In this document: in pieces, positions 1,072 to 25,009 of the stretch
How positions within the stretch are numbered: the first letter of the stretch is position 1
Layout: each line of letters opens with the position of its first letter
IMG/VR virus record: IMGVR_UViG_3300023435_000088
Coordinates: 1-25,113 of that record
Source of the DNA: a virus
Length of the DNA: 25,113 bases
Direction: 5' to 3' (one strand)
Position numbers and translations under genes: made by a program
The notes under the pieces: model-generated
Seen by the model: the letters and a program-made list of their open reading frames with translations, nothing else
Databases searched by the model: none
What the model was told of the DNA's origin: nothing

Positions 1072-4000
1072 TCATGACTGGCGCCTCGTCTGAGCCCGCA
1101 GGCTCTCGTCTCCGATGTGGGTCCACATTCCGGGGCACGCGTGGGCGGCCAGCGGCAGGCCGGCATCGCGGACCCTGCGCATGGCCTCCATCTCTCCGCC
1201 GCAGGGGTAGACTCGGCCGATGTCCGACACCCGCATCAAAGTCGGATTGAATGTCCAGTGCGCCTCTGCTATCCGCACCGGCCCGCGCCGCTCCCAGCGT
1301 ATCTCCTCGCGCGTGATCATGTGGCGCTCGCTCACATCATCGCCAAGGTGCCGCAGGCGGACCTGGCCGACCTGCTCGTGCTCGTCGAGCGCTCCACGGG
1401 CAGCGTCCAGCCAGCCGTCTACGGTGCTGATCGCCCGCCAATCGTCCTCCAGGTGCAGCCAGTAGCGGCGCCCCGACCCGGCGGCGAGGACGGCAAGCTG
1501 GCTCAGCGCGTCACCGATGGGGTGAATCCTGTCCTGCTCGGTGAGGTGGTTGATCCGAGGCATGTGCCGCCAGAGCACATCGGCCGTCGCCTGGTCCGTC
1601 CCCTGCCGGAGCGCGTAGACTTTGGCGCTGTCAAGCAGCCCGGGGCAGATCCGCTCGGTGGAGTCGAGGGTATCTGCCAGGAGGCTGGCGCGGCCCCCGG
1701 TCAGGATGGTCACGGCCACGTCGGAGGCGTCCACGGGCGGGCGCACCACGGGGCGCTGCGTCACGCGGATCAGACCCTTCCCGACGCGCAGGAACTCAAC
1801 GCAGGCCCCACGCTCGCGTGCCCATCCGAGGGCGGCCTCTCGCTCTGATCTGCGAGACCCGTCGTCGAGCCACATCTCCCACCCGTCCGCCATGTGCGGG
1901 AGCAGGGCGGGAAGCGCGGCGGCGCGTCCGCCGGTGGCCTGCGGTGGTCCGTCGATGAGTGCCCAGCCGATGCCGTCGGGGACGCCGGACGTGTACCACG
2001 GGCGGGCGTCGAGCTGCGACAGCCGCAGATCCACGGAGCCAGAGAGCCCATGGGTAGCCAGCAGCGCTCGGGTCGCAGCGAGGTAGCGCTCCTGGTGCTC
2101 GAGCGCGACCGACTGCCCGCCGGTGGCCCGCGCGTGCTCGGCCAGCAGCAGCGTGGAGGAGCCGGAGCCGGATTCGAGCGCCACGCTCGGCCGGAGCTGG
2201 GCTAGGCGCCCCTGGATCTCTGCGGCCGTGGCCCGATGCACCGCCCAGCCCTGCCACAGCGAGCGATCCATGGCTGGGTCGCCTGGATACGCCAGAGCCG
2301 CGGCCGTGGCTGCCTTCGGCGGGCCTGTCCGCAGCAGCGCTCGGAGCCGTTCGGCCTCCCGCTGGACGGCGGCCGAGTCCTCGGCGGAGATGCTACCAGC
2401 GATGACTGCAGGCGCTCCATCGGCTCCGGCCTTTACGGCCCCGGCCCAGAGAGCCCGGAGCCTCGTCGTCGCCTGCTTGCGGTGCGGCGACCCAATGCCG
2501 GTAGACGGCTCCCGCGTCAGCGATCCGGGCCGGCAGCAGCGGTGATAGAGGGGATCTGACAGCACTGCGACACGTCCGCAGAGGTGGGCCAACCCCGTCA
2601 TCACGGTGTCGTACCCCACCCGATAGCCAGGGTGCGGCCCCCCGACCGAGCGCAGCCACGCCGGGCGCCAAAGCGCCGCCATGTGGGCGTACCACTTGAG
2701 CGCAGGAGAGTGCCGCCATGCCTTGCAGCGCTCGTGCTCCGTGTTCCCGGTGACTCCGTGGACGATCTGGTGCCCGAGTACAACATCGGCCTCGCCGCCG
2801 AGGGCGAGCAGGGCCGCCAGGCGCCCAGGCTCGCTCCAGTCGTCGGCGTCGTGGATCGTCCACCAGGGCGTCTCGCAGGCGGCGAGCGTGACCGCGTCAG
2901 CGAAGTAGCGTCCGCGGTTCTCGCGCAGGTCGAAGCGCACCACGCGGGGATCTGCGATGTCGGCCAGAGGCTCCCACGCTGCAGGTCCGTCCCCGTCGTT
3001 GACGAGCACGAGCCGCAGCCGGCGCTCTGCCTGACTGAGCACGCTAGTCACAGCACGGAGCAGGATCTCTGGCGGGGTGCGATAGAAAGGCATGGAGACC
3101 GTGACGAGCGGGCCGGAGAGTGGCGGCGGAGCTGGCGGAGCCATCGGAACAGGAGCGCGCGCCGGGGCCACGCGCCTGCCCATCCCCGCAGACCTCGAAA
3201 TTACCGGCCCCGTCCGCGTCCTGCCTGCCGTGCGTGCCACCTCGCCTCCCACTGTCGGACGCACACCGCTTAGCCCAAGCGCCTGAATCACCACCTCGGG
3301 ATAGCTCGGGAGGCTCAGCCTGGGCAGCCCATCGGCCAGCCCCTGGCGCACCGCTGCGACCCACGCGGCCACCGGAGCGCCGAGCCCCACGAAGAGCGCC
3401 GAGCCACCCAGGGCGCGGCGGGGCCCCGGGAGGTCGCTGGACACAACGGGGATCCCGCGCACCGCCGCCTCGGCCATCGCTAGCCCGTAGGTCTCGGCCT
3501 GGCTAGGTGACAGCACGAGCCGCGCCTGGGCCAGCCACACGTCCGGTTGGAGTCCCGGCGGAGCGACTGCGACGTGGCTGAGCTCGCGCCACGGGGCCAG
3601 GTCTCTGGCGTTGGCGCGGCCAGGCAGCACGTACCAGGGGCAGTCCGTGATCCGCCGAGCGACGGCGAGGGCGAGCGGTCCGCCCTTCGACTTCGACGCG
3701 CCCGGGACAACGATGCTCGCGCCGGCGCGCTCACCGCCCGCAACGAGCGCCCAGCTCGAAGGGGGCAGCACGATCTCTCGCGCCCATCCCTTCGTCGGCT
3801 TGTCGGCGGGAGCGGCGGGGGCCACGCGCGCCAGGACGCAGCCGGCGCCGGGCGGGATGGGCCCATGGTGGTGCCAGTAGATCAGACGGGCGCTGGCCCC
3901 GGCGCGCTGGGCGGAGATGGCCGTCTGGCGCCAGGCGGGGGCGATGGATGTGATGGCGAGGCCGGCGCCGACCCAGTCCTCGGCGGACATGCCGGGGCGG

Positions 4001-4176
4001 TCGACCCACCGAACGCCCTCGCGGGTCCACGGCGCCGAGGCCCCCGGCGATAGGTGGCAGTCCACCGCGACGCCCAGGTCTGCCAGCACGCAGGCGAGGT
4101 GCGCCATTGCGATGCTCATCCCGTCGCGCCCGCCGTCTGGGCTACCCCATCGCCTGGCCAGGAGGGCGACCCTCAC
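1072..4176 (-). CDS. Four-domain glycosyltransferase/methyltransferase protein
   Basis: This 1034-residue protein begins at a GTG overlapping the previous stop (GTGA). Residues about 1-290 look like a GT-B (GT4-type) glycosyltransferase: the segment SPSQAETYGLAMAEAAVRG carries the E-x7-E motif (E228, E236). A Pro/Ala-rich linker (about 330-355) follows. Residues about 356-560 resemble a GT-A family 2 enzyme, opening VTVSMPFYRTPPE and carrying the acidic nucleotide-sugar/metal motif HDADDW (442-447). Residues about 630-805 resemble a class I SAM methyltransferase, with a glycine-rich ESGSGSS loop (668-674), ALEHQERY and IDGPP (741-745). Residues about 818-1025 look like a second GT-A-like domain, with VTILTGGRASLL and LEDDW (909-913). 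It follows the tail fibre genes, which suggests glycosylation and methylation of a fibre, of host surface sugar, or of DNA. The domains are clear by motif, but the substrate is unknown. There is no signal peptide, so it should act in the cytoplasm. Confidence 0.85.
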   Translation of the reverse strand: MRVALLARRWGSPDGGRDGMSIAMAHLACVLADLGVAVDCHLSPGASAPWTREGVRWVDRPGMSAEDWVGAGLAITSIAPAWRQTAISAQRAGASARLIYWHHHGPIPPGAGCVLARVAPAAPADKPTKGWAREIVLPPSSWALVAGGERAGASIVVPGASKSKGGPLALAVARRITDCPWYVLPGRANARDLAPWRELSHVAVAPPGLQPDVWLAQARLVLSPSQAETYGLAMAEAAVRGIPVVSSDLPGPRRALGGSALFVGLGAPVAAWVAAVRQGLADGLPRLSLPSYPEVVIQALGLSGVRPTVGGEVARTAGRTRTGPVISRSAGMGRRVAPARAPVPMAPPAPPPLSGPLVTVSMPFYRTPPEILLRAVTSVLSQAERRLRLVLVNDGDGPAAWEPLADIADPRVVRFDLRENRGRYFADAVTLAACETPWWTIHDADDWSEPGRLAALLALGGEADVVLGHQIVHGVTGNTEHERCKAWRHSPALKWYAHMAALWRPAWLRSVGGPHPGYRVGYDTVMTGLAHLCGRVAVLSDPLYHRCCRPGSLTREPSTGIGSPHRKQATTRLRALWAGAVKAGADGAPAVIAGSISAEDSAAVQREAERLRALLRTGPPKAATAAALAYPGDPAMDRSLWQGWAVHRATAAEIQGRLAQLRPSVALESGSGSSTLLLAEHARATGGQSVALEHQERYLAATRALLATHGLSGSVDLRLSQLDARPWYTSGVPDGIGWALIDGPPQATGGRAAALPALLPHMADGWEMWLDDGSRRSEREAALGWARERGACVEFLRVGKGLIRVTQRPVVRPPVDASDVAVTILTGGRASLLADTLDSTERICPGLLDSAKVYALRQGTDQATADVLWRHMPRINHLTEQDRIHPIGDALSQLAVLAAGSGRRYWLHLEDDWRAISTVDGWLDAARGALDEHEQVGQVRLRHLGDDVSERHMITREEIRWERRGPVRIAEAHWTFNPTLMRVSDIGRVYPCGGEMEAMRRVRDAGLPLAAHACPGMWTHIGDESLRAQTRRQS

Positions 4177-9103: not shown

Positions 9104-10158
9104 GCCGTGGCCTTCTTCACGCTGGCCCTGACGGTGTAGCCGCCCTTCCCGACGGTGTGCGTGGCCTTCGCCACGGCGTACTTGCCGTTCAGCTTGTTCC
9201 AGCCAGCGAGCTGGATGCAGTTGCCGGCCACCAGCCGCACGTCCCCCATGATGGTCAGCGTCCCCTCGGCCGAGTGCTCCGTCCTGGCGAGGAGCGCAGC
9301 CTTCGCCTTCGCCTGGGCCTCGGCCACGCTGCGGGCGCGCACTCGCATGACCTCGGCGGCGGCGTCGTCGAAGCTCTGGGACTCGAGCCCGAAGGGGTCG
9401 GCGGGGTCCGGGTCACGCAGCGCCTCGGCGCCCGTGATGGTCGACTCCTGCACGTCGCCGTGCCACGGGTCCTGGTAGATGACCTTGACCCGCGGCGTGT
9501 AGAGGTACGCCTTCACCTTCAGATCCCAGCTCAGGATCCGGCTCTCGCCCAGCGTGTAGGTGGTGACGGCTGGCTTCAGCGCGTAGTCCGCGATGCTCCA
9601 CACGACGATCTGGCCGTCGATCACCTTCGTCGCGTAGTGGCGCTCAGCGGCCGCCCGCGCCAGGAAGGCCAGGTCCGTCTCGCTGTTCTGTACGATGCGG
9701 TCGAGCAGGCCCGTGTCGTCGGCGTCCCAAACCAGAGACATCCGGGCTGAGGCGGCGACGTCCTCGGCCACGGTGCGCAGTGTCGTGCTCTCCCACGCCC
9801 GGGAACGCTTCGTCTTGCGGGCGGCGAGCCCTGTCGGGACGCTCACGCCAGCGATCCGCACGGTCGACGGAGGCCCAGCCATGGACAGCTCGTCGACGGT
9901 GAAGGTCCCGCAGAGCAGTGAGCCACCGCCCTCGCCCCAGTCGTCGGCGTGGAGGCGGACCGTGAGGGTGTCGCCCTGCCCCGGGAGCCAGTCGCCGCGC
10001 CAGAGGGCGGCCCGGTCCTGGAGCGAGATGCTCGCCTCGTCGGCCGTGCCGCCCTCGTTGTCGACGTACTCGACGCCGAGCAAGTAGGGGGCCAGGTCCG
10101 CGGAGATGTCCTCGCCCTCATAGACGATTTCAGCCCAGGCTCGGCGGGCGAGGGTCAC
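9100..10158 (-). CDS. Tail hub protein D (late control gpD-like)
   Basis: The 352-residue protein has the P2 gpD/Mu gp44 layout. The N-terminal domain begins RRAWAEIVYEGEDISADLAPYLLGVEY and continues with EASISLQDR and GDTLTVRL. A middle domain has the typical LDRIVQNSETDLAFLARAAAE, matching the family's 'QxxESDldFLxRLA'. The C-terminal strand region contains EAQAKAKAALLART and a final KATHTVGKGGYTVRASVKKA, as in gpD. gpD forms the hub above the spike at the end of the tube. It starts with a GTG overlapping the gpX stop and overlaps gpV by GTGA. Confidence is high. Confidence 0.92.
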   Translation of the reverse strand: MTLARRAWAEIVYEGEDISADLAPYLLGVEYVDNEGGTADEASISLQDRAALWRGDWLPGQGDTLTVRLHADDWGEGGGSLLCGTFTVDELSMAGPPSTVRIAGVSVPTGLAARKTKRSRAWESTTLRTVAEDVAASARMSLVWDADDTGLLDRIVQNSETDLAFLARAAAERHYATKVIDGQIVVWSIADYALKPAVTTYTLGESRILSWDLKVKAYLYTPRVKVIYQDPWHGDVQESTITGAEALRDPDPADPFGLESQSFDDAAAEVMRVRARSVAEAQAKAKAALLARTEHSAEGTLTIMGDVRLVAGNCIQLAGWNKLNGKYAVAKATHTVGKGGYTVRASVKKATA

Positions 10159-10370
10159 GGGGTCCGCCAGGGCGGCAGGCTAGGCGAGGTGTCAGGCGTG
10201 GGCACGGTGGGCACATTGAGCACGATCCCCGCCGGCAGGCGCACGAGGTACGCGTGGGCGGGGTTGGCCAGGATGAGGAGGTCGAGGTAGCGCTCGTCGC
10301 CCAGCAGATCCAGGGCGAGGAGGTCCCATGTGTCGCCGGCCTCTGTCGTGTTGGTCGTTGCCCTAGCCAT
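10155..10370 (-). CDS. Tail protein X (LysM-like)
   Basis: This 71-residue protein overlaps the tape measure gene by 8 bases and gpD by GTGA. It carries the small LysM-type fold of gpX: AGDTWDLLALDLLGDERYLDLLILANP, then a strand segment ending AGIVLNVP. gpX-type proteins always precede gpD. They are thought to seal or organise the tube end near the hub. The extra Pro-rich C-terminus (PTPDTSPSLPPW) may be a flexible tail. Confidence 0.88.
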   Translation of the reverse strand: MARATTNTTEAGDTWDLLALDLLGDERYLDLLILANPAHAYLVRLPAGIVLNVPTVPTPDTSPSLPPWRTP

Positions 10371-12477
10371 ACGCGAGCCGGTCCTGCTTCTCCTGGGCGG
10401 CCTGCAGGCGCTCCAGGAGATCGTCGGCGCCGGCCTTCACTGCGGCCGCGATGTCGGCCCGGGAGGCGTCCCCCTGCACCGTGATCTGCGGGCTGTACGC
10501 CACGGACAGCGCCGTGCTGTTCTGACGGCCCTGCTCGCGCGTCGCCATGGCCCCGGACAGGGCGGCGCTCGATTGCGCCAGCGGCTTTGGCCCCTCGACG
10601 GCGGCGACGCCACGATCAAGGCTCCCGCTCAGCTTCGTGGTCAGCTCGGCCAGGTGTGGGGCTGCGGCGGCCGGCGCCATGGACGCCAGCGCCAAGCCCA
10701 CACGCAGAGGGGCGGCGAGGATCTCCAGGGCGCGGGCTGCGACCCATCGCACCGTGGCGATGACGGAGTCGCCCCACTGATCCCAGAGAGACGACAGCGC
10801 GCCGATGGCCGTAGCCCACCCCGCAACGATGACATCGAAGAGCCACACCATCGCGGCCCACACCTTCGACGCCAGGCCGACGAAGAGGGCGACGACGATA
10901 GCGACGGCAGGCTGAATCGCCTCCCACACCCACGCCCACACGGCGCCGAGCAGACGACCGAACGCTGCGATGACTTCTGCGATGGGGGCCAGGATCAAGC
11001 CGATCACTTCGACGGCGGCGAGGATCACCAGGCGGATACCGCCCCAGGCCCACTGCATCCGGTCCCAAATCCAGGCGGCGATAGCCGAGATCCGCTCCCA
11101 TGCCGCCACGGCAAAGTCGGCAACGGCCAGACCTGCCGCCTTCACTGCTCCGACGATCAGGCCCCAGTGTTTCACGACGACGACGATCAGCGCAGGGATC
11201 AGCCAGAGGGGCAGCGTGAGCCAACCCAGCACAGCCACGATGGTCTTGATCGCCGCCGACGACTTTCTGAGCGCCGCCGTCCAGCGGTCCCAGTGGACGA
11301 TCGCCAGCGTAATCAGCGCCACCTGCGCGGCGAGCCCAACGACGAGCCATGTGATGGGGTTGGCGAGCAGCGCTGCGGCGAAGCTCCAGGCGGCCGTGCT
11401 CGCTCCCCAGAGGGCCAGGGTGAGATTCACTATTCCGGCCACGATGGGGGCGAAGCGGACGGCGGCGAGGATCAGGCCCAGGCTCTCCCATCCGCCGGCC
11501 ATGTCCTTGACTGAAACGAGAAGGTCCAGCGCCTTACCGGCGAGCGCGGAGACCCTGTCCGCGAGCTCCTTCAGCTTCGGTATAGACCGCTCGGCCAGCA
11601 GCACGAAGCGGTCAGCGAGCTCCTTGACCCGCCCCTGATTCGACTGCAGCCACTTGGCGAGACGCTCGAACATGCGGGTGAAGATCGGCATCAGGGCGGC
11701 GCCGATGGTCGTCTTGATCCCGGCGAACGACAGCCTTAGATCCAGGAGGCGGTCGTTGAACTTGGCCGCGTCCTCGGCAGCCTCGCGCCCGAGTACCCCG
11801 CCGGTCGCCCGCGCCTCTTTGCGGAGGCGGCGCATCCCGTCGGCGCCCTGATCGAACAAAACGCCCAGCTTTTTGGCGCCGCGCCCGAAGAGCGACTGAC
11901 TCACCGCAGCCTTCTCGGCCACAGTGGGCAGCTTCCCTATCGCGTCGGCCAGGGTCTCAAGCGCCTCTTCGGGCTTCATGCGGGCCAGGTCCTGGGCGCT
12001 CAGCCCAAGCTGGTCCAGGTAGCGGCGGGCCTCGCCAGTGCCGGCCACGGCCTGCCCGAGCTGCACATGCATCTGTCGAAGGGCCAGGTTCAGATCTTCC
12101 TGTGCTGCCCCGGTGCGCTCGGCCGCGTACCACAGCTCCTGCAGCACCCCCACGTCCACGCCGAGATTCTGCCCCATCTTGATCGCGCGGTCGCCCACTT
12201 CGGCGGTGCTGCGGGCGAGCATAAAGAGGCCACCGGCGGCCAGACCGGATGCTGCAGCGATCTGGAATGCGAGGCTACCGACCTGCGAGGAGACACCACT
12301 GAAGGCGCGCCCGACGCCCCGCCACGCCCTCGTGAGTTGCTGCTGTCGAGCGAGGAGAACGCCCTGCCTCTGGAGCAGGGCGAGCCGCTTGCTGGCAATC
12401 CCGGTCGCCGTGGTGAATCCGGCAGAGAGCTGGCCGCCGATGCGGAATGCTAGCTCATACGTCCGGCCCCGTGCCAC
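10363..12477 (-). CDS. Tail tape measure protein
   Basis: This is the longest tail gene (704 residues). The N-terminal 300 residues show the TP901-type tape measure core: AEVGDRAIKMGQNLGV, QELWYAAERTGAAQED, then EEALETLADAIGKLPTVAEKAAV and LFGRGAKKLGVLFD. Repeated Trp/Ala/Val-rich hydrophobic segments (about 330-580) are typical of tape measures, which line the tube and later cross the host membrane. The start is a GTG only 3 bases after the end of the chaperone extension at 12481. Length sets tail length: 704 residues predicts about 1000 angstroms at 1.5 angstroms per residue, a rough family rule. It ends with an 8-base overlap into gpX. Confidence 0.93.
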   Translation of the reverse strand: MARGRTYELAFRIGGQLSAGFTTATGIASKRLALLQRQGVLLARQQQLTRAWRGVGRAFSGVSSQVGSLAFQIAAASGLAAGGLFMLARSTAEVGDRAIKMGQNLGVDVGVLQELWYAAERTGAAQEDLNLALRQMHVQLGQAVAGTGEARRYLDQLGLSAQDLARMKPEEALETLADAIGKLPTVAEKAAVSQSLFGRGAKKLGVLFDQGADGMRRLRKEARATGGVLGREAAEDAAKFNDRLLDLRLSFAGIKTTIGAALMPIFTRMFERLAKWLQSNQGRVKELADRFVLLAERSIPKLKELADRVSALAGKALDLLVSVKDMAGGWESLGLILAAVRFAPIVAGIVNLTLALWGASTAAWSFAAALLANPITWLVVGLAAQVALITLAIVHWDRWTAALRKSSAAIKTIVAVLGWLTLPLWLIPALIVVVVKHWGLIVGAVKAAGLAVADFAVAAWERISAIAAWIWDRMQWAWGGIRLVILAAVEVIGLILAPIAEVIAAFGRLLGAVWAWVWEAIQPAVAIVVALFVGLASKVWAAMVWLFDVIVAGWATAIGALSSLWDQWGDSVIATVRWVAARALEILAAPLRVGLALASMAPAAAAPHLAELTTKLSGSLDRGVAAVEGPKPLAQSSAALSGAMATREQGRQNSTALSVAYSPQITVQGDASRADIAAAVKAGADDLLERLQAAQEKQDRLAYG

Positions 12478-13491: not shown

Positions 13492-14958
13492 TCAGCCGAA
13501 CAACAGCGCCAGGGCGGCCACGTCGTACTCGATCACGAAGCTGATGGACTTCGCTGGCGGGGGCGGCGTCCAGTAGACGCGGAAGGTCGAGCCGCCGTCC
13601 AGTAGGTCCACGGTCGGATTGTCCGCCACGGCAAACACGACCTCTCCGGCGAGGATCGCGCCCTGGGCCGCCAGCCCGTTCATGAAGATGTTGGCGCTGT
13701 CCACGACGCTCTCGATGAGGCGCAGGTTCATCGCGTCGTCGACGCGCGAGAAGTAGGTCAGCGCCAAGGTGTTTACCAGCCACAGGGTCATGCGCCGGAT
13801 CGGAACGAAGGCGTCCTTCGGGTCGGTCGACGCCGGGTAGCCGGCGGTCCGGTTGCCCCAGAGCCTCCAGCCGCCGAAGTTCAGCGCCGTCACGATACCG
13901 GCGGCGTTGAGGATGTTGGCCTGGAGCCAGGTCAGGGCGACCTCGGTCCCGTCCTCCATCACCGCCCCGTCCGCCAGCAGATCCTTGTTCGAGGGGCTCA
14001 CGTAGGGCACGCCCTGACCGGCGCCAGCGTCCGTCAGGTTGGCGAGCCCGGCGTAGTGGCTGCTCATCCAGTGAGTCGCCGTACCCCTGGTGACCTTGGG
14101 CCAGCAGCAGACCATGTTGGCGGAGGTGTAGTTGCTGGCCAGCTTCCACGCCGCTGCCTCGGAGTAGTTGGCGATCTCGTACTCGTCGGGGTCGAGGTCG
14201 ACCACGATCTGGGGCACGAAGACGCCGTTCACGCTGGCACCGCGCGCCACCAGTCCGGCGGCCACGGTGGGCTCGTGAGAGTAGCCCGGGGCGAGGAACA
14301 TCCCCGGCACCTGCTGCAGCTTCGGGCAGACGTCCTCGATGCAGTAGAGACCCGTGTTGACCGCGCCCACGGCCGTGCCGATCACGTCTGCGGCGACCAC
14401 ACCGGCGGGGTCCATTTTCGAATAGGTCAGGTGGCAGAGCGGCAGGGCGCCCGTGCCCATGGCCCCGGCGGCGACCCTGGTGATGACCAGGTAGCCGTCG
14501 GAGTCGTAGGCCAGCGTGTAGTCAGTGGTCAGAGCGTACGCCACCGGGGGCGCTGCGCCGTCGTCGAGCACGACGGTCGTCTTGTCGGCCCCGAAGACCT
14601 CGACGGTCTGGCTGGTCTCGGCGTCCGCCCACGCCAGCGCGGCGCGGGCCACGGCGTCCATGTGGTCCTCGTCGTCGGGATCCAGGACGTTGATGCAGAC
14701 GGCCGGCTGGACGCCGTAGAGCCCGAAGTAGACGGAGGCGAACTCGGAAAGGGTGTAGTCCGCGACCGGCCCGTCGCCAAACGCCGCGTTGAACTCGGCC
14801 AACGAAGTGCAGAGCACGGGCACGTTGACATTCGTGCGGACGCCCTCGACCACGGCCGCTGTCCCGACCACGACAGGGAGCCCTGCGTTCGCCGTGATCG
14901 GCGGCCTGGCAGAGGTCGGAACCTCGCTCGCTGATACGCCATGCGCATAGATCGCCAT
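13492..14958 (-). CDS. Tail sheath protein (contractile, P2 FI-like)
   Basis: The 488-residue protein is a contractile sheath. It begins with PTSARPPITANAGLPVVVGTA, then FNAAFGDGPVADYTLSEFASVYFGLYGVQPAVCINVLD, then VPQIVVDLDPDE. The conserved C-terminal region has NAAGIVTALNFGGWRLWGNRT, DPKDAFVPIRRM and MNLRLIESVVDSANIF. The final segment is short and beta-rich. GGAGG upstream of the ATG at good spacing supports the start and high expression. The presence of a sheath makes this a myovirus-type particle. Confidence 0.94.
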   Translation of the reverse strand: MAIYAHGVSASEVPTSARPPITANAGLPVVVGTAAVVEGVRTNVNVPVLCTSLAEFNAAFGDGPVADYTLSEFASVYFGLYGVQPAVCINVLDPDDEDHMDAVARAALAWADAETSQTVEVFGADKTTVVLDDGAAPPVAYALTTDYTLAYDSDGYLVITRVAAGAMGTGALPLCHLTYSKMDPAGVVAADVIGTAVGAVNTGLYCIEDVCPKLQQVPGMFLAPGYSHEPTVAAGLVARGASVNGVFVPQIVVDLDPDEYEIANYSEAAAWKLASNYTSANMVCCWPKVTRGTATHWMSSHYAGLANLTDAGAGQGVPYVSPSNKDLLADGAVMEDGTEVALTWLQANILNAAGIVTALNFGGWRLWGNRTAGYPASTDPKDAFVPIRRMTLWLVNTLALTYFSRVDDAMNLRLIESVVDSANIFMNGLAAQGAILAGEVVFAVADNPTVDLLDGGSTFRVYWTPPPPAKSISFVIEYDVAALALLFG

Positions 14959-20548: not shown

Positions 20549-20778
20549 AGGTCCCTCGGGATCACGCGGCGGATGCGTGGGCCTGCGGCGCGGCCGTCCT
20601 GGAGACGGGCCACCTCGCGGCGCCAGAAGGCGAGCTGTCGGGCGATGTCGGTGAGGTCGGCGCGGGTGAGGGTGCGGGAGCCGATGGTGTAGGACTGGCC
20701 ACCGGCGCAGGCCAGGTCAGCGGCGAGCCACGCCGCTAGATGCTCCTGCGCTTGAACTAGGGTCCAGGGCTCCGCCAC
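20545..20778 (-). CDS. gpW-like head-tail joining protein (DUF6148 type)
   Basis: This 77-residue protein lies between the large terminase and the portal, the place of lambda gpW. The pattern AQEHLAAWLAADLACAGGQSYTIGSR followed by LTRADLTDIARQLAFWRREVARL is the one I know from DUF6148/gpW-like small proteins: a helix, a 'sYtIGsRtLTRadL' turn, then a second helix. It starts at a GTG overlapping the terminase stop (TAGTG). Such proteins stabilise the packaged head and form the site for the next joining protein. Confidence 0.88.
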   Translation of the reverse strand: MAEPWTLVQAQEHLAAWLAADLACAGGQSYTIGSRTLTRADLTDIARQLAFWRREVARLQDGRAAGPRIRRVIPRDL

Positions 20779-22607
20779 TATCGCACCCCCCTGGAGAGAA
20801 CCCTACGGCCTCGGCGCGGCTTTGTCACGCGCGGCACGCCTGGCCCCCCGGGATTGGCCCGGTTCGTAAGCGTGGGGTGGAGGATCTCCAGCGCGGCCGT
20901 GGCGTAGACGCGGCAGTCCAGCGGCTCGTTGCGGTCGTGGATCTTCTTCCACTCCATCCGCCGCGCCCCGCCGCGCTGGACAACGATGCGCCGCTCGCTT
21001 ACCAGGCCGGCGAAGTAGGCAGCGTCATACCCCCGATCCGCCTGCCGCGGCCAGTGGCAGTAGCCTGGCCCCTCGTGCTCCGTCTGGATCCGAGCCATCA
21101 GCGTGCCCTTGAGATCGTCCACGCCGAGCGTGAAGAGCGCGGCCTTCATCCGGTTTCCGCGGGTAGGCTTCCCGACGGCTGGCACCCCCGCCCCGCCCCG
21201 CCCCTTGATGGCCCAGACGGCGCGCTGCTCCCGAGCCCGGCAGTACGCGTACACCTCCGCTGTGTGGTGGCCACCCGAGTCCACGCACACGCAGGACAGC
21301 CCGAGGCGGCGACCGTCGTCGGTCTGCCAGGTGCGCACGAGCTGCGCGTCGAGCGCGGCCCAGCTCTCGGGCAGGGAGGGGTCGCCCATGAGCACGAGGT
21401 ACTCGACGCCCCAGCTCTCGCGATCCGCGCCCCAGCCCACCACCTCCAGCTCCAGGCGGTCGTCTTGCACGTCCACGCCTGCGGTCAGGACTAGCACCCC
21501 TGCGGGGGCCTCGCCGTCGTAGTACTCGCGGCGCCGCTCCAGGTACTCGACGGCGATCACCTGCTGGTGCTCGACCCACGGCTGGCCGAGGCGCAGGTTC
21601 ACAAACTCCTGCAGCCCCCGCTTGTCCCGGTCGTCCTGGACCTTGCACCACTGCTCCGCGAGCTCGGCCCACCTCACCCAGGGCGAGTAGAGCGCCGACA
21701 GGTCCCCGAAGCTGGCCACCTTCCCGCCGGGCTTCTGGGCGATCCACTCCCCGGCGGCCAACATGGCTGGCTTGTGGCGCTCCTCGATCCGACCCTCGCA
21801 GTGCTCGCAGAGGTAGTGCGCTCGCTCCAGGTCCCGCTCTCCGTCGGCGTCTTTGTAGATCAGGCGGCTCCAGACCAGGACTTGCAGCGCCCCGCAGTGA
21901 GGGCAGGGCACCTCGTAGCGCCGCTGGTCTCCCTGTTCGTGCTCGTGCTGGATCTTTGACAGGCCGTCCACGGTGGGCGTGGAGACGAGGACGATCTTGC
22001 GGTTGTAGAAGTTCGAGGTCCGCTGCCTGGCCAACTTGACGGGGTCCCCCTCGACGCCCGCCGAGATGGGGAAGCGGTCCACCTCGTCGCAAAGCACCAC
22101 CCGGATCGGGCGGCTCGCGAGTCCGGCGGCGGCGTTGGCCCCGGCGAGAGCAAGGTAGCCTCCGGGGAAGTGCTTGACTCGGATCGTGTTGGCGCTCTTG
22201 CGGTTCCCGCCGCGCCCGTCCTTGCCGCTCTCCAGCTTGCCGCGCAGGACCGGCGAGGCCCGGAAGCTCGGTTCGATGCGCTCTTTGCTGAAGGCCTCCA
22301 GGGCTTCGATGGTGGGCTGGACCATCAGGATTGGCGCCGGGTCCTGGTCGACGAAGTAGCCGAGGATGTTGAGCAGCGCTTCAGTCTTGCCCATCTGGGA
22401 GGCCATCATGGCGACGACGGTCTCTATCGCCGGGTCGCACACGGCGTCCATGATCCCGCGGACGTAGGGCGCCCGATCAGTGTGCCACGCCCCCGGCTCC
22501 GGGCTCGTGCCCCTCGGGATCCGCCGGTAGCGGTCGGCCCACTCCGACACCAGAAGGCGGGGCTTCGGGCGGAGGACTGCCCGGAGAACGCCGGTGTAGG
22601 CTCCCAT
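20778..22607 (-). CDS. Terminase large subunit (lambda gpA-like)
   Basis: I chose the ATG at 22607, which forms TAATG with the radical SAM stop, giving 609 residues. A GTG at 22649 would add 14 residues inside that gene. The protein has the ATPase Walker A-like ASQMGKTEALLN (about 69-80), a Walker B with VVLCDEVDRF (170-179), and the gpA-type zinc ribbon with CPHC (235-238) and CEHC (267-270). The nuclease part holds LTAGVDVQDDRLELEVVGWG and CVCVDSGGHHTAEVY. It drives DNA packaging into the prohead and makes the end cut. The gpA type fits a cos- or related packaging system. Confidence 0.95.
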   Translation of the reverse strand: MGAYTGVLRAVLRPKPRLLVSEWADRYRRIPRGTSPEPGAWHTDRAPYVRGIMDAVCDPAIETVVAMMASQMGKTEALLNILGYFVDQDPAPILMVQPTIEALEAFSKERIEPSFRASPVLRGKLESGKDGRGGNRKSANTIRVKHFPGGYLALAGANAAAGLASRPIRVVLCDEVDRFPISAGVEGDPVKLARQRTSNFYNRKIVLVSTPTVDGLSKIQHEHEQGDQRRYEVPCPHCGALQVLVWSRLIYKDADGERDLERAHYLCEHCEGRIEERHKPAMLAAGEWIAQKPGGKVASFGDLSALYSPWVRWAELAEQWCKVQDDRDKRGLQEFVNLRLGQPWVEHQQVIAVEYLERRREYYDGEAPAGVLVLTAGVDVQDDRLELEVVGWGADRESWGVEYLVLMGDPSLPESWAALDAQLVRTWQTDDGRRLGLSCVCVDSGGHHTAEVYAYCRAREQRAVWAIKGRGGAGVPAVGKPTRGNRMKAALFTLGVDDLKGTLMARIQTEHEGPGYCHWPRQADRGYDAAYFAGLVSERRIVVQRGGARRMEWKKIHDRNEPLDCRVYATAALEILHPTLTNRANPGGPGVPRVTKPRRGRRVLSRGVR

Positions 22608-23983
22608 TATGGCAGGGCGCCGGGGCCGGCCCACGGCCTGCGGCCCCACATCCGCTCAACACCGGCGTACCCCTTCAGGTAGCGGGTTGGCAGCGTCTCG
22701 GCGGCGAACTCCCCGAAGAGACGCTGCAGGTCGAAACACCCGGCGAGCGTGGCCATTTTGCTGTCGGACCGGGAGCCCCAGAAGCGGCGCGTGCGGGCGA
22801 TGCGGCCCACGCTCTCGGAGTCTTCCTCGGTGCCACGCAGGGACACGGCGTCGAGCACAACGGACGGCAGGGCCTCCGTGCCAGCCGTCTCCACCGCCCA
22901 CGTGCGCGGGCCCTGGTGAAAGACAAGATTCGGGTTTTCGGGGTCTCTCAGGACCGCGGCGATCTCCCCCCTGTGGCTCTTCAACTCCATCGGCCAGCAG
23001 GCGGAAGGGGTGGCAGGCATGGCCCTGAACTGCGTGGAGTGGAGAAGGATCTTCCATTGCTTCCCGTCCGGCCTGGGCGCAGCGCAGTCGGCAGCGGCGA
23101 TGTCTTCTTTAATCTCCAGCCAGTCGTCGTGCGTCTCGCTGGGCAGCCCGGAGATGTTGTAGAGCTGCACCCAGTACGTCCGGTCCGTCGACGCGATCCC
23201 ACTAACAAGCATGCGCACCATTTCCCTAGTGATCGGCTTGTTGACCATCCGGCGCAGCCGCTCGCTGAACCCGTCGAGGCCGAGAATCAGGCGCGGCGTC
23301 CCCTTGGCCCATGTATCCGGTCTGGCCAGGTCCAGGTCGAAGAACGTACGCTCGGCGCTTACGTTTCCCCACATGGCGCTTCCTGCGCTCGACGCGTCCT
23401 GCATTCCGGCCACGTTGCGCCGGTGCCATGTGTACCCGCAGAACAGGCACTTTCGCTGGCAGCCGATAGACCGCTCGGACCACAGCTTCCCGCCCTCCAG
23501 GCGCACGGAGTGCGGCCATGGCTCCGACGCCTGAGCGATCCGGTATGTGCTCTCCGGGCCGAAGGCGTCGGCGTAGCAGACCGACTCGTGATCGAAGCGC
23601 TCCCCGGCGAGCAGCGCGTCGGCCAGCGGGGAGATCAGGTGCTCGCCTCGCCCAAATACGAACACGTCGGCCCAACGCAGGAATGGGCGCACGTTAAGCA
23701 CGCCTGGCCCTCCGACCACAACAACGGTGTCGGGGCACGGCTGCCACCGCTCCCGCTCGGCGATGAAGCTCCACCAGTCGCATGCGCTTGTGACGCTCAC
23801 TAGCACCACGCGATGGCGGTGGGCGGTCGCCGCGCTGCAATAGTCGACTTCATGGCCGGTCCTCTGTAGCGCGTCGACGACCATAGCGAGGCCGGGCCAG
23901 CCCCGCACGTCGAAGCTCTCCACTGCATACGCCGGCTTGGCGTAGCGCGTCTGGACGTAGCGGGCGATGGTCCCGGGCATCAT
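22607..23983 (-). CDS. Radical SAM enzyme with a B12-binding-like N-terminus
   Basis: The 458-residue protein carries the radical SAM cluster motif C-x3-C-x2-C as IGCQRKCLFCGY (Cys175, 179, 182). Downstream LGLDGFSERLRRMVNKPIT and GLPSETHDDWLEI match the family segments 'G.(D/E)..s...L..m.K..t' and 'GLPgET..d'. The N-terminal 120 residues resemble a Rossmann B12-binding domain: VVVVGGPGVLN and ADVFVFGRGEHLISPLADALLAG, like the '.GEGE' turn. The cobalamin His motif DxHxxG is not visible, so cofactor binding is uncertain. ATG overlaps the ParB-like gene (ATGA) and its TAA overlaps the terminase ATG. It is therefore translated with packaging genes. The substrate is unknown; DNA-base or peptide modification are both possible. 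Confidence 0.85.
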   Translation of the reverse strand: MMPGTIARYVQTRYAKPAYAVESFDVRGWPGLAMVVDALQRTGHEVDYCSAATAHRHRVVLVSVTSACDWWSFIAERERWQPCPDTVVVVGGPGVLNVRPFLRWADVFVFGRGEHLISPLADALLAGERFDHESVCYADAFGPESTYRIAQASEPWPHSVRLEGGKLWSERSIGCQRKCLFCGYTWHRRNVAGMQDASSAGSAMWGNVSAERTFFDLDLARPDTWAKGTPRLILGLDGFSERLRRMVNKPITREMVRMLVSGIASTDRTYWVQLYNISGLPSETHDDWLEIKEDIAAADCAAPRPDGKQWKILLHSTQFRAMPATPSACWPMELKSHRGEIAAVLRDPENPNLVFHQGPRTWAVETAGTEALPSVVLDAVSLRGTEEDSESVGRIARTRRFWGSRSDSKMATLAGCFDLQRLFGEFAAETLPTRYLKGYAGVERMWGRRPWAGPGALP

Positions 23984-24492
23984 CGGGCGAACTCAAAGCC
24001 GCACTTCGGACAGCGCTGCATCGGCGGTGGCTTAGTGTCTGCGCTCTTGTCGTCTAGCTTTACCGGGTCGGGCGCCCCCACTTGTAGCCCAGACATGAGC
24101 CCCGCCAGCTCCTCGTCAGCGAAGCCGAGGGCGTCCAGGTTGAAGTCGGCGGCCTGCAGGTCTGACAGCTCTTGGGCGAGGAGCGCCTCATCCCAGCCGG
24201 CGTTCAGCGCCAGGCGGTTGTCCGCGATGCGCAGCGCCTTGACCTGCTCCTCGGTGAGGCCAGCCAGGCGCACCACGGGAACCTCCGTCAGCCCCAGCCG
24301 AGCGGCGGCAGCGCAGCGCCCGTGCCCGGCGATGATCTCCAGGCTGGCGTCCACAAGCACGGGGTTGGCGAAGCCGAAGCGCTTGATGCTGGCGGCGATC
24401 TCCGCCACCTGCTCCGGCGAATGCGTCCGGGCGTTGCGTCCGTAGGCGCGCAGCTTGGACGGGTGGAGGTACTCAATCTGCAGATCACCCAT
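23980..24492 (-). CDS. ParB/Srx-fold protein with a C-terminal CxxC tail
   Basis: The 170-residue protein has a complete ParB N-terminal domain: LHPSKLRAYGRNARTHSPEQ, then EIAASIKRFGFANPVLVD, the catalytic or nucleotide-binding GHGRCAAAARLG (56-67), and LRIADNRLALNAGWDEALLA. This version is the one that in many phages and islands precedes or is fused to a DNA methylase. Here there is no methylase. A Lys/Asp-rich linker leads to a terminal CPKCGFEFAR, half a zinc-ribbon motif. GAGGGA precedes the ATG, which overlaps the small terminase gene by 8 bases. It may bind or process DNA or nucleotides together with the radical SAM enzyme. The role is inferred. Confidence 0.88.
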   Translation of the reverse strand: MGDLQIEYLHPSKLRAYGRNARTHSPEQVAEIAASIKRFGFANPVLVDASLEIIAGHGRCAAAARLGLTEVPVVRLAGLTEEQVKALRIADNRLALNAGWDEALLAQELSDLQAADFNLDALGFADEELAGLMSGLQVGAPDPVKLDDKSADTKPPPMQRCPKCGFEFAR

Positions 24493-25009
24493 AGCGTCCC
24501 TCGTGCAGCGCCTGGAGCGCTTCGGTTGTGGCGGTGTCGAGGATGGCTTCGTCGTGCGCCGTCTCCCCGGTCATGAGCGGTGCCACCCGGGCTGGGATGG
24601 CCTGGATGGCGACGCGGATGCGGGTCCCGATCTCTCGGGCCTCGGCCTTCACGTCGGCCAGGGAGACGAGGGAACCCCTCAGCTCCTCCATGCGGAGGCG
24701 GCGGGTCTCTGCCTGGTAGACCTTGTCGGCGGCGCGGGCCTGGGCAAGGCGGCTGGCGGCAGTGGCGTGGTTGGCAGGGACGGGGGCCGGGCCGGAGAGG
24801 GCGTCGGGTCTGGGCTCTGGTGGCAGGTCGGGAATGATGCCGCGCTCCGCGTCCCACACGGCCTTGCCCTCGCCCCACGGGATTTTGCGCTGTCCCTTGC
24901 GTCCGACGGCAACGGTCGGGAGCTTGCCCTCGTCGATGAGCTGGCTGACGCGCTGGCGAGTCACGCCCACGCGCCGAGAGAACTCCGTTGCGGTGACTAG
25001 CTCAACCAT
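24485..25009 (-). CDS. Small terminase subunit-like DNA-binding protein (Nu1 type)
   Basis: The 174-residue protein begins with a winged helix-turn-helix: VELVTATEFSRRVGVTRQRV, then SQLIDEGKLPTVAVG and a PWGEGKAVWDAERG segment, as in Nu1-like proteins. A Pro-rich linker (about 60-85) follows, then a helix with NHATAASRLAQARAADKVYQAETRRLRMEELRG and the pattern SLADVKAEAREIGTRIRVAIQAIPARVAPLM seen in terminase small subunits. It is first in the block and probably binds the packaging site, which may be the repeat cluster just upstream. It also could act as a regulator. Its Shine-Dalgarno is weak. Confidence 0.82.
   Translation of the reverse strand: MVELVTATEFSRRVGVTRQRVSQLIDEGKLPTVAVGRKGQRKIPWGEGKAVWDAERGIIPDLPPEPRPDALSGPAPVPANHATAASRLAQARAADKVYQAETRRLRMEELRGSLVSLADVKAEAREIGTRIRVAIQAIPARVAPLMTGETAHDEAILDTATTEALQALHEGRYG

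Follow-up and report, generated by a model that had tools for sequence, protein, structure and literature searches.

Phage DNA is known to be modified by methylases, dioxygenases, glycosyltransferases, Mom, and 7-deazaguanine enzymes. Radical SAM enzymes, in turn, repair DNA (spore photoproduct lyase) and modify RNA; to our knowledge, marking of a DNA base directly by such an enzyme has only been proposed, for thymidine hypermodification in Pseudomonas phage M6, and we know of no methylase of this kind for which it has been demonstrated. For the class B radical SAM methylases known so far, the substrates are proteins or natural products; MgmA, for example, adds a methyl group to a glutamine of a protein. 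In MgmA and the radical SAM methylases related to it, cobalamin is bound without its tail serving as the lower ligand, the lower face being met by a hydrophobic residue or by none, and in MgmA no lower-face ligand is in place (PMC11796369). In Gordonia phage CaiB, the genes for ParB, TET/JBP, a pyrophosphorylase, and an adenylate kinase follow one another with 4-bp overlaps ahead of the terminase (PMC9302106), and the ParB-like ATPase DpdB reportedly helps DpdA put dPreQ0 into DNA (PMC12839542). A literature search for radical SAM enzymes in connection with phage DNA modification or ParB found nothing on the system described here.

The DNA analyzed, a virus record of 25,113 bases that is called the window throughout, belongs to a contractile-tailed phage, as indicated by matches to tail sheath (13492–14958), tape measure (10363–12477), baseplate, and tail proteins. 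Downstream of the tail fibre gene, positions 1072–4176 encode a protein of 1034 residues with two glycosyltransferase domains. The locus of interest lies on the minus strand, where the genes run in the order small terminase (TerS), ParB, radical SAM, large terminase of the gpA type (TerL), adaptor, portal, protease, head decoration, and major head protein. TerS (24485–25009, minus strand; phrog_57, E 8.7e-22) overlaps the start of ParB by ATGGGTGA. The ParB-like protein that follows has 170 residues (23980–24492, minus strand) and matches PF02195 (3.4e-7), phrog_620 (4.9e-59), and phrog_498 (2.8e-51), the last of which covers ParB within a DNA methyltransferase family. The radical SAM protein comprises 458 residues and begins with ATG (22607–23983, minus strand); its identification draws on the open reading frame, Pfam, a family alignment, an AlphaFold model, and fold matches. 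TerL (20778–22607, minus strand; PF05876, 6.5e-88, and PF20454, 4.2e-86) starts at the TAATG overlap. The preliminary description had proposed an open reading frame at 22607–23983 that overlaps ParB by ATGA and the large terminase by TAATG; the frame was confirmed, its strand is minus, and both overlaps proved exact when the junctions were read directly from the sequence (TerS/ParB as given above, ParB/radical SAM as CGATGATG, and radical SAM/TerL as CCATAATGG).

Taken alone, the window protein matches the relevant Pfam models below their curated cut-offs, with 20.8 bits for PF04055 (cut-off 29.5), 21.2 bits for PF02310 (cut-off 32.1), and 23.5 bits for PF19864 (cut-off 29). Assignment to the radical SAM enzymes therefore needed relatives, 15 of 16 of which match PF04055 (best value 1.1e-7) and 7 of 16 PF02310 (E up to 0.01). 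The gene is a member of an uncultivated-phage family with about 40 distinct members. Viral scans for the family returned 41 and then 47 loci, and 12 genome contigs that carry it are titled Planctomycetota/Phycisphaerales, Clostridia, Pseudomonadota, or uncultured bacterium; no record in the INPHARED phage collection, which was also searched, carries it. One locus (L034, 7061–11353) carries the radical SAM gene twice, encoding 449 and 453 residues, on either side of one ParB, and another (L080, 4150–6273) carries a broken or chimeric frame for the radical SAM protein.

The CxxxCxxC cluster motif, placed by the preliminary description at Cys175, Cys179, and Cys182, is found there (residues 175–182, 23438–23461, minus strand) and is invariant in an alignment of 40 sequences, in which Cys175, Cys179, Phe181, and Cys182 do not vary. 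Lack of conservation of these cysteines had been named beforehand as an outcome that would speak against the proposal; in the same alignment they are conserved. Asp237, Ser240, Arg242, Gly279, Pro281, Glu283, Phe319, Thr325, and Pro326 are invariant as well, and we assign these residues to the later motifs in the core of COG1032-type enzymes. The radical SAM core is delimited by the alignments and the model to approximately residues 167–318 (23030–23485, minus strand), with IVGYPTET-like and STPFRxMPATP motifs inside it. Its section from the cluster motif to IDGxSERLR (Cys182 to residue 237) is shortened. The canonical GGE motif is absent, and a predicted strand comprising residues 211–213, the second β strand, carries the invariant Glu211.

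The AlphaFold model built from the family alignment (pLDDT 90.3, pTM 0.91) finds its best solved match by Foldseek in MgmA, the cobalamin-dependent radical SAM methylase (E 6.8e-11), followed by TsrM (8e-9) and by CysS, OxsB, and MiaB (~1e-6), with RimO also among the matches. Those to MgmA, TsrM, MiaB, and CysS indicate a partial TIM barrel in which the part following the cluster motif is shortened. The Rossmann domain at the N terminus (approximately residues 30–125, 23609–23896, minus strand) is of the cobalamin type that is characteristic of class B methylases, as judged from the fold matches to MgmA and TsrM; PF02310 covers residues 31–116 of it in the window protein at a sub-threshold score. 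The B12-binding-like domain noticed in the preliminary description is thus borne out by the fold and by the seven relatives that match PF02310. A C-terminal hairpin and helical region (approximately residues 330–445, 22649–22996, minus strand, from the model) has no assigned role. The order of an N-terminal Rossmann domain, a CxxxCxxC radical SAM core, and a C-terminal domain is shared with MgmA, TsrM, CysS, and OxsB, none of which needs a DxHxxG motif. Unlike these methylases, the window enzyme has a shortened barrel, is carried by a phage and paired with ParB, and is only ~14–15% identical to its best matches; its cobalamin is predicted. MiaB and RimO also resemble it in overall domain order and fold, but the window enzyme lacks their N-terminal cysteine triad and TRAM domain, and a methylthiotransferase was ruled out on these grounds. 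RlmN/Cfr was ruled out as well, since Cys68 and Cys329, common in the family, are missing in its distant members L083 and L086.

The DxHxxG motif is absent from the window protein, as the preliminary description had stated, but its absence is not evidence against cobalamin, because in the cobalamin radical SAM methylases with solved structures the lower ligand is not supplied by the tail of the cofactor (PMC11796369). As enzymes of the MgmA type bind cobalamin in the absence of this motif, it is plausible that the window enzyme does the same.

The constant partner of the radical SAM gene is ParB and not the terminase. A ParB profile places ParB directly upstream in 34 of the 36 non-redundant loci in which upstream DNA is present, 33 of them found by script and one, the cluster of L018 and L021, by reading the ParB frame by eye. 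Two of the 34 (L025 and L030) have ~430–550 bases between the two genes. The upstream ParB is retained even where the radical SAM proteins are only 26–32% identical (L082, L083, L084, and L086), and the two loci without it are L080, with the broken frame mentioned above, and L087, with 26% identity. Distances among the ParBs and among the radical SAM proteins co-vary (Mantel r 0.80, permutation maximum 0.33), with r falling to 0.39 when the comparison is limited to divergent pairs. A C-terminal CxxCG tail is common to all ParBs paired with this radical SAM family and reads CPKCGFEF or CPKCGHEF in most of them (CPKCGFEF in the window, residues 161–168, 23989–24012, minus strand). A GHGR motif, seen in the alignment of the ParBs linked to the radical SAM genes, lies at residues 56–59 (24316–24327, minus strand) and occupies the nucleotide-binding GxxR position of the ParB/Srx fold. 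In L018 and L021 (both 9496–10548), the ParB frame has no stop after CPKCGFEF and continues through the radical SAM gene in another frame, owing to either a frameshift or an overlap. The terminases that adjoin the ParB–radical SAM pairs belong to at least five PHROG kinds. Large terminase genes in L006 (2180–5047) and L120 (1852–3639) include LAGLIDADG or homing-endonuclease domains, probably inteins.

Two loci show the site of the pair in other states. In L190 (1–2500), which is 98.4% identical to window positions 22575–19248, the stop of TerS overlaps the start of TerL, and ParB and the radical SAM gene are missing together, leaving a natural empty site. In L193 (446–2546), the slot is filled by a different radical SAM enzyme, ~26% identical to the nearest family member and with a longer core, while TerS, the ParB domain, and TerL show ~74–76% DNA identity; the ParB of this locus has no CxxCG tail. 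A viral scan with the L193 enzyme as the query found only L193 itself. Matches to enzymes of this type in INPHARED were set aside, being faecal scaffolds without annotation and a single Microcystis phage record, which contains mqnC and ispG and is probably bacterial DNA. The joint absence in L190 and the other enzyme in L193 indicate that packaging can do without the pair and that the enzyme is exchangeable; L190, which lacks both genes, rules out a requirement of the pair for packaging. The description of the radical SAM gene as locked into the packaging operon consequently does not hold, as its constant partner is ParB, its terminase neighbors are of at least five kinds, and packaging, judged by L190, does not depend on the pair.

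ParBs of the same type were sampled in other phages with the ParB domain of the window as the query, yielding 80 viral loci (59 non-redundant), a set built around this ParB type rather than a census. Thirty-six of the sampled ParBs are long fusions, all but one (35/36) to an N6/N4 DNA methylase. The 18 complete standalone ParBs without a radical SAM gene were characterized by the gene that follows. This gene encodes an N6/N4 methylase in three (L091, L134, and L147), a C5 cytosine methylase in one (L097), TET in three (L114, L123, and L127, the last assigned by near-identity to L115), a TET-associated glycosyltransferase in three (L117, L163, and L168), Mom in one (L139, 3001–4147), a queuine-transglycosylase-like protein followed by QueC in one (L169), and an ABC-plus-GNAT protein in two (L151 and L154). 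The remaining neighbors are a class I methyltransferase (L135) and HNH (L143), with no enzyme in L120 and L166. Altogether, an established class of DNA modification is fused or adjacent to ParB in 47 of 54 cases (36 fused and 18 standalone). In Escherichia phage 666R9, ParB is likewise followed by a TET-associated glycosyltransferase and then by the terminase genes. The genes of L169 (2959–5153), in which ParB has a CPECGHEF tail, likely form a 7-deazaguanine DNA-modification cassette, and the ABC-ATPase plus GNAT protein after ParB in L151 (1163–2281) and L154 (384–1490) is possibly another uncharacterized DNA-modification enzyme.

On balance, and with some reserve, we favor a swappable cassette of ParB and a radical SAM enzyme in which ParB assists the enzyme in modifying the phage DNA ahead of its packaging. 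DNA as the substrate is supported by association, through the genes found with this ParB, and is favored because the same ParB is otherwise fused to, or adjoins, known DNA-base-modification enzymes. The preliminary description had found phage DNA an attractive substrate on account of co-translation with the packaging genes; the substrate stands, but its stronger ground is the company of ParB rather than co-translation alone. The two accessory genes, inserted between those of the small and large terminases, would act together, with the radical SAM protein as the enzyme half. The ParB-like protein would bind phage DNA, or license the enzyme with a nucleotide by means of its GHGR motif, which is of a nucleotide-binding type, or do both, and its CxxCG tail may bind zinc or the enzyme. 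The enzyme would use a [4Fe-4S] cluster, SAM, and probably cobalamin held in the Rossmann domain to modify bases of phage DNA by radical chemistry, most likely through C-methylation, a reaction that we infer. Co-translation with the terminase would set the timing late, just ahead of packaging. ParB would act as a loader, and the benefit would be anti-restriction, allowing escape from restriction or other DNA-targeting defences. In the radical SAM loci, many of which are fragments, phmmer found no TET, glycosyltransferase (TAGT), or C5 methylase, and only ParB and N6/N4 methylases; this weakly suggests an ordinary or N-methylated base as the substrate.

A limit of the DNA reading is that MgmA, the best-matching solved fold, acts on protein and not on DNA, and the foremost alternative is that the window enzyme also modifies a protein, with candidates that include the terminase, one of the head proteins, and ParB, the last perhaps at its CxxCG tail. 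The conserved CPKCGFxF tail on every paired ParB recalls the core of a precursor peptide encoded upstream of a radical SAM gene. The terminases, however, are of at least five kinds, and similar CPxCG tails are present on standalone ParBs that accompany a C5 DNA methylase (L097) or the transglycosylase and QueC (L169), so that this feature is not restricted to ParBs of the radical SAM enzyme, and the ParB that accompanies the different enzyme of L193 has none. The RiPP-like reading, with the tail as the substrate, was demoted on these observations, and we consider a protein substrate in general unlikely.

Less probable again is an enzyme that modifies tRNA or mRNA, in the manner of MiaB, RlmN, or Elp3, and alters translation during infection. 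The fold matches include MiaB and RimO, and RNA is the substrate of several radical SAM families, but the three cluster cysteines are the only invariant ones, with no methylthiotransferase triad at the N terminus, Pfam finds no TRAM domain, the position and the partner of the gene are typical of DNA-modification genes, and no tRNA gene was found within the window. A small-molecule enzyme that resides here by chance, whether auxiliary metabolic, producing a modified-nucleotide precursor, or making an antiviral nucleotide against competitors, seems to us slightly more doubtful still; phage radical SAM genes are often metabolic, and weak scores to B12-type families of cofactor and lipid enzymes were obtained, but the near-obligate pairing with ParB across contigs titled from Planctomycetota to Clostridia, the joint loss of both genes in L190, and the lack of a linked metabolic pathway within the window all argue against it. 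Finally, a degenerate protein devoid of SAM chemistry and serving as a structural partner of ParB, to which the shortened barrel and the absent GGE motif might point, is highly improbable given cluster cysteines and core motifs that are invariant among relatives down to ~37–40% identity and the invariant Glu211 on the predicted second β strand.

With DNA modification by the ParB–radical SAM pair as the preferred reading, the locus can be set beside the systems already described. It shares the ParB domain, and often the position ahead of the terminase, with the phage ParB–N6/N4 methyltransferase fusions and with the combinations of ParB with TET, TAGT, Mom, or transglycosylase–QueC, and differs from them in having a radical SAM enzyme; the literature searched has no example of this class with this ParB. 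As in DpdA/DpdB, which place 7-deazaguanine in DNA, a ParB-like protein would help a base-modifying enzyme on DNA (PMC12839542), although the chemistry of the enzyme is different and the ParB of the window is short and has a CxxCG tail. Judged by its genes, the locus is probably a radical SAM version of the ParB-linked DNA-modification cassette, a kind already known, to which the radical SAM partner would be a new addition.

The link to ParB offers a simple rule for finding DNA-modification enzymes, namely, to read the gene that adjoins this ParB, and the paired gene, the empty site of L190, and the swapped site of L193 make the idea directly testable. If it is true, radical SAM chemistry on DNA bases could yield carbon-methylated bases or other marks that present methods of base detection would not anticipate, and would indicate a way, not yet on record, for phages to evade restriction.
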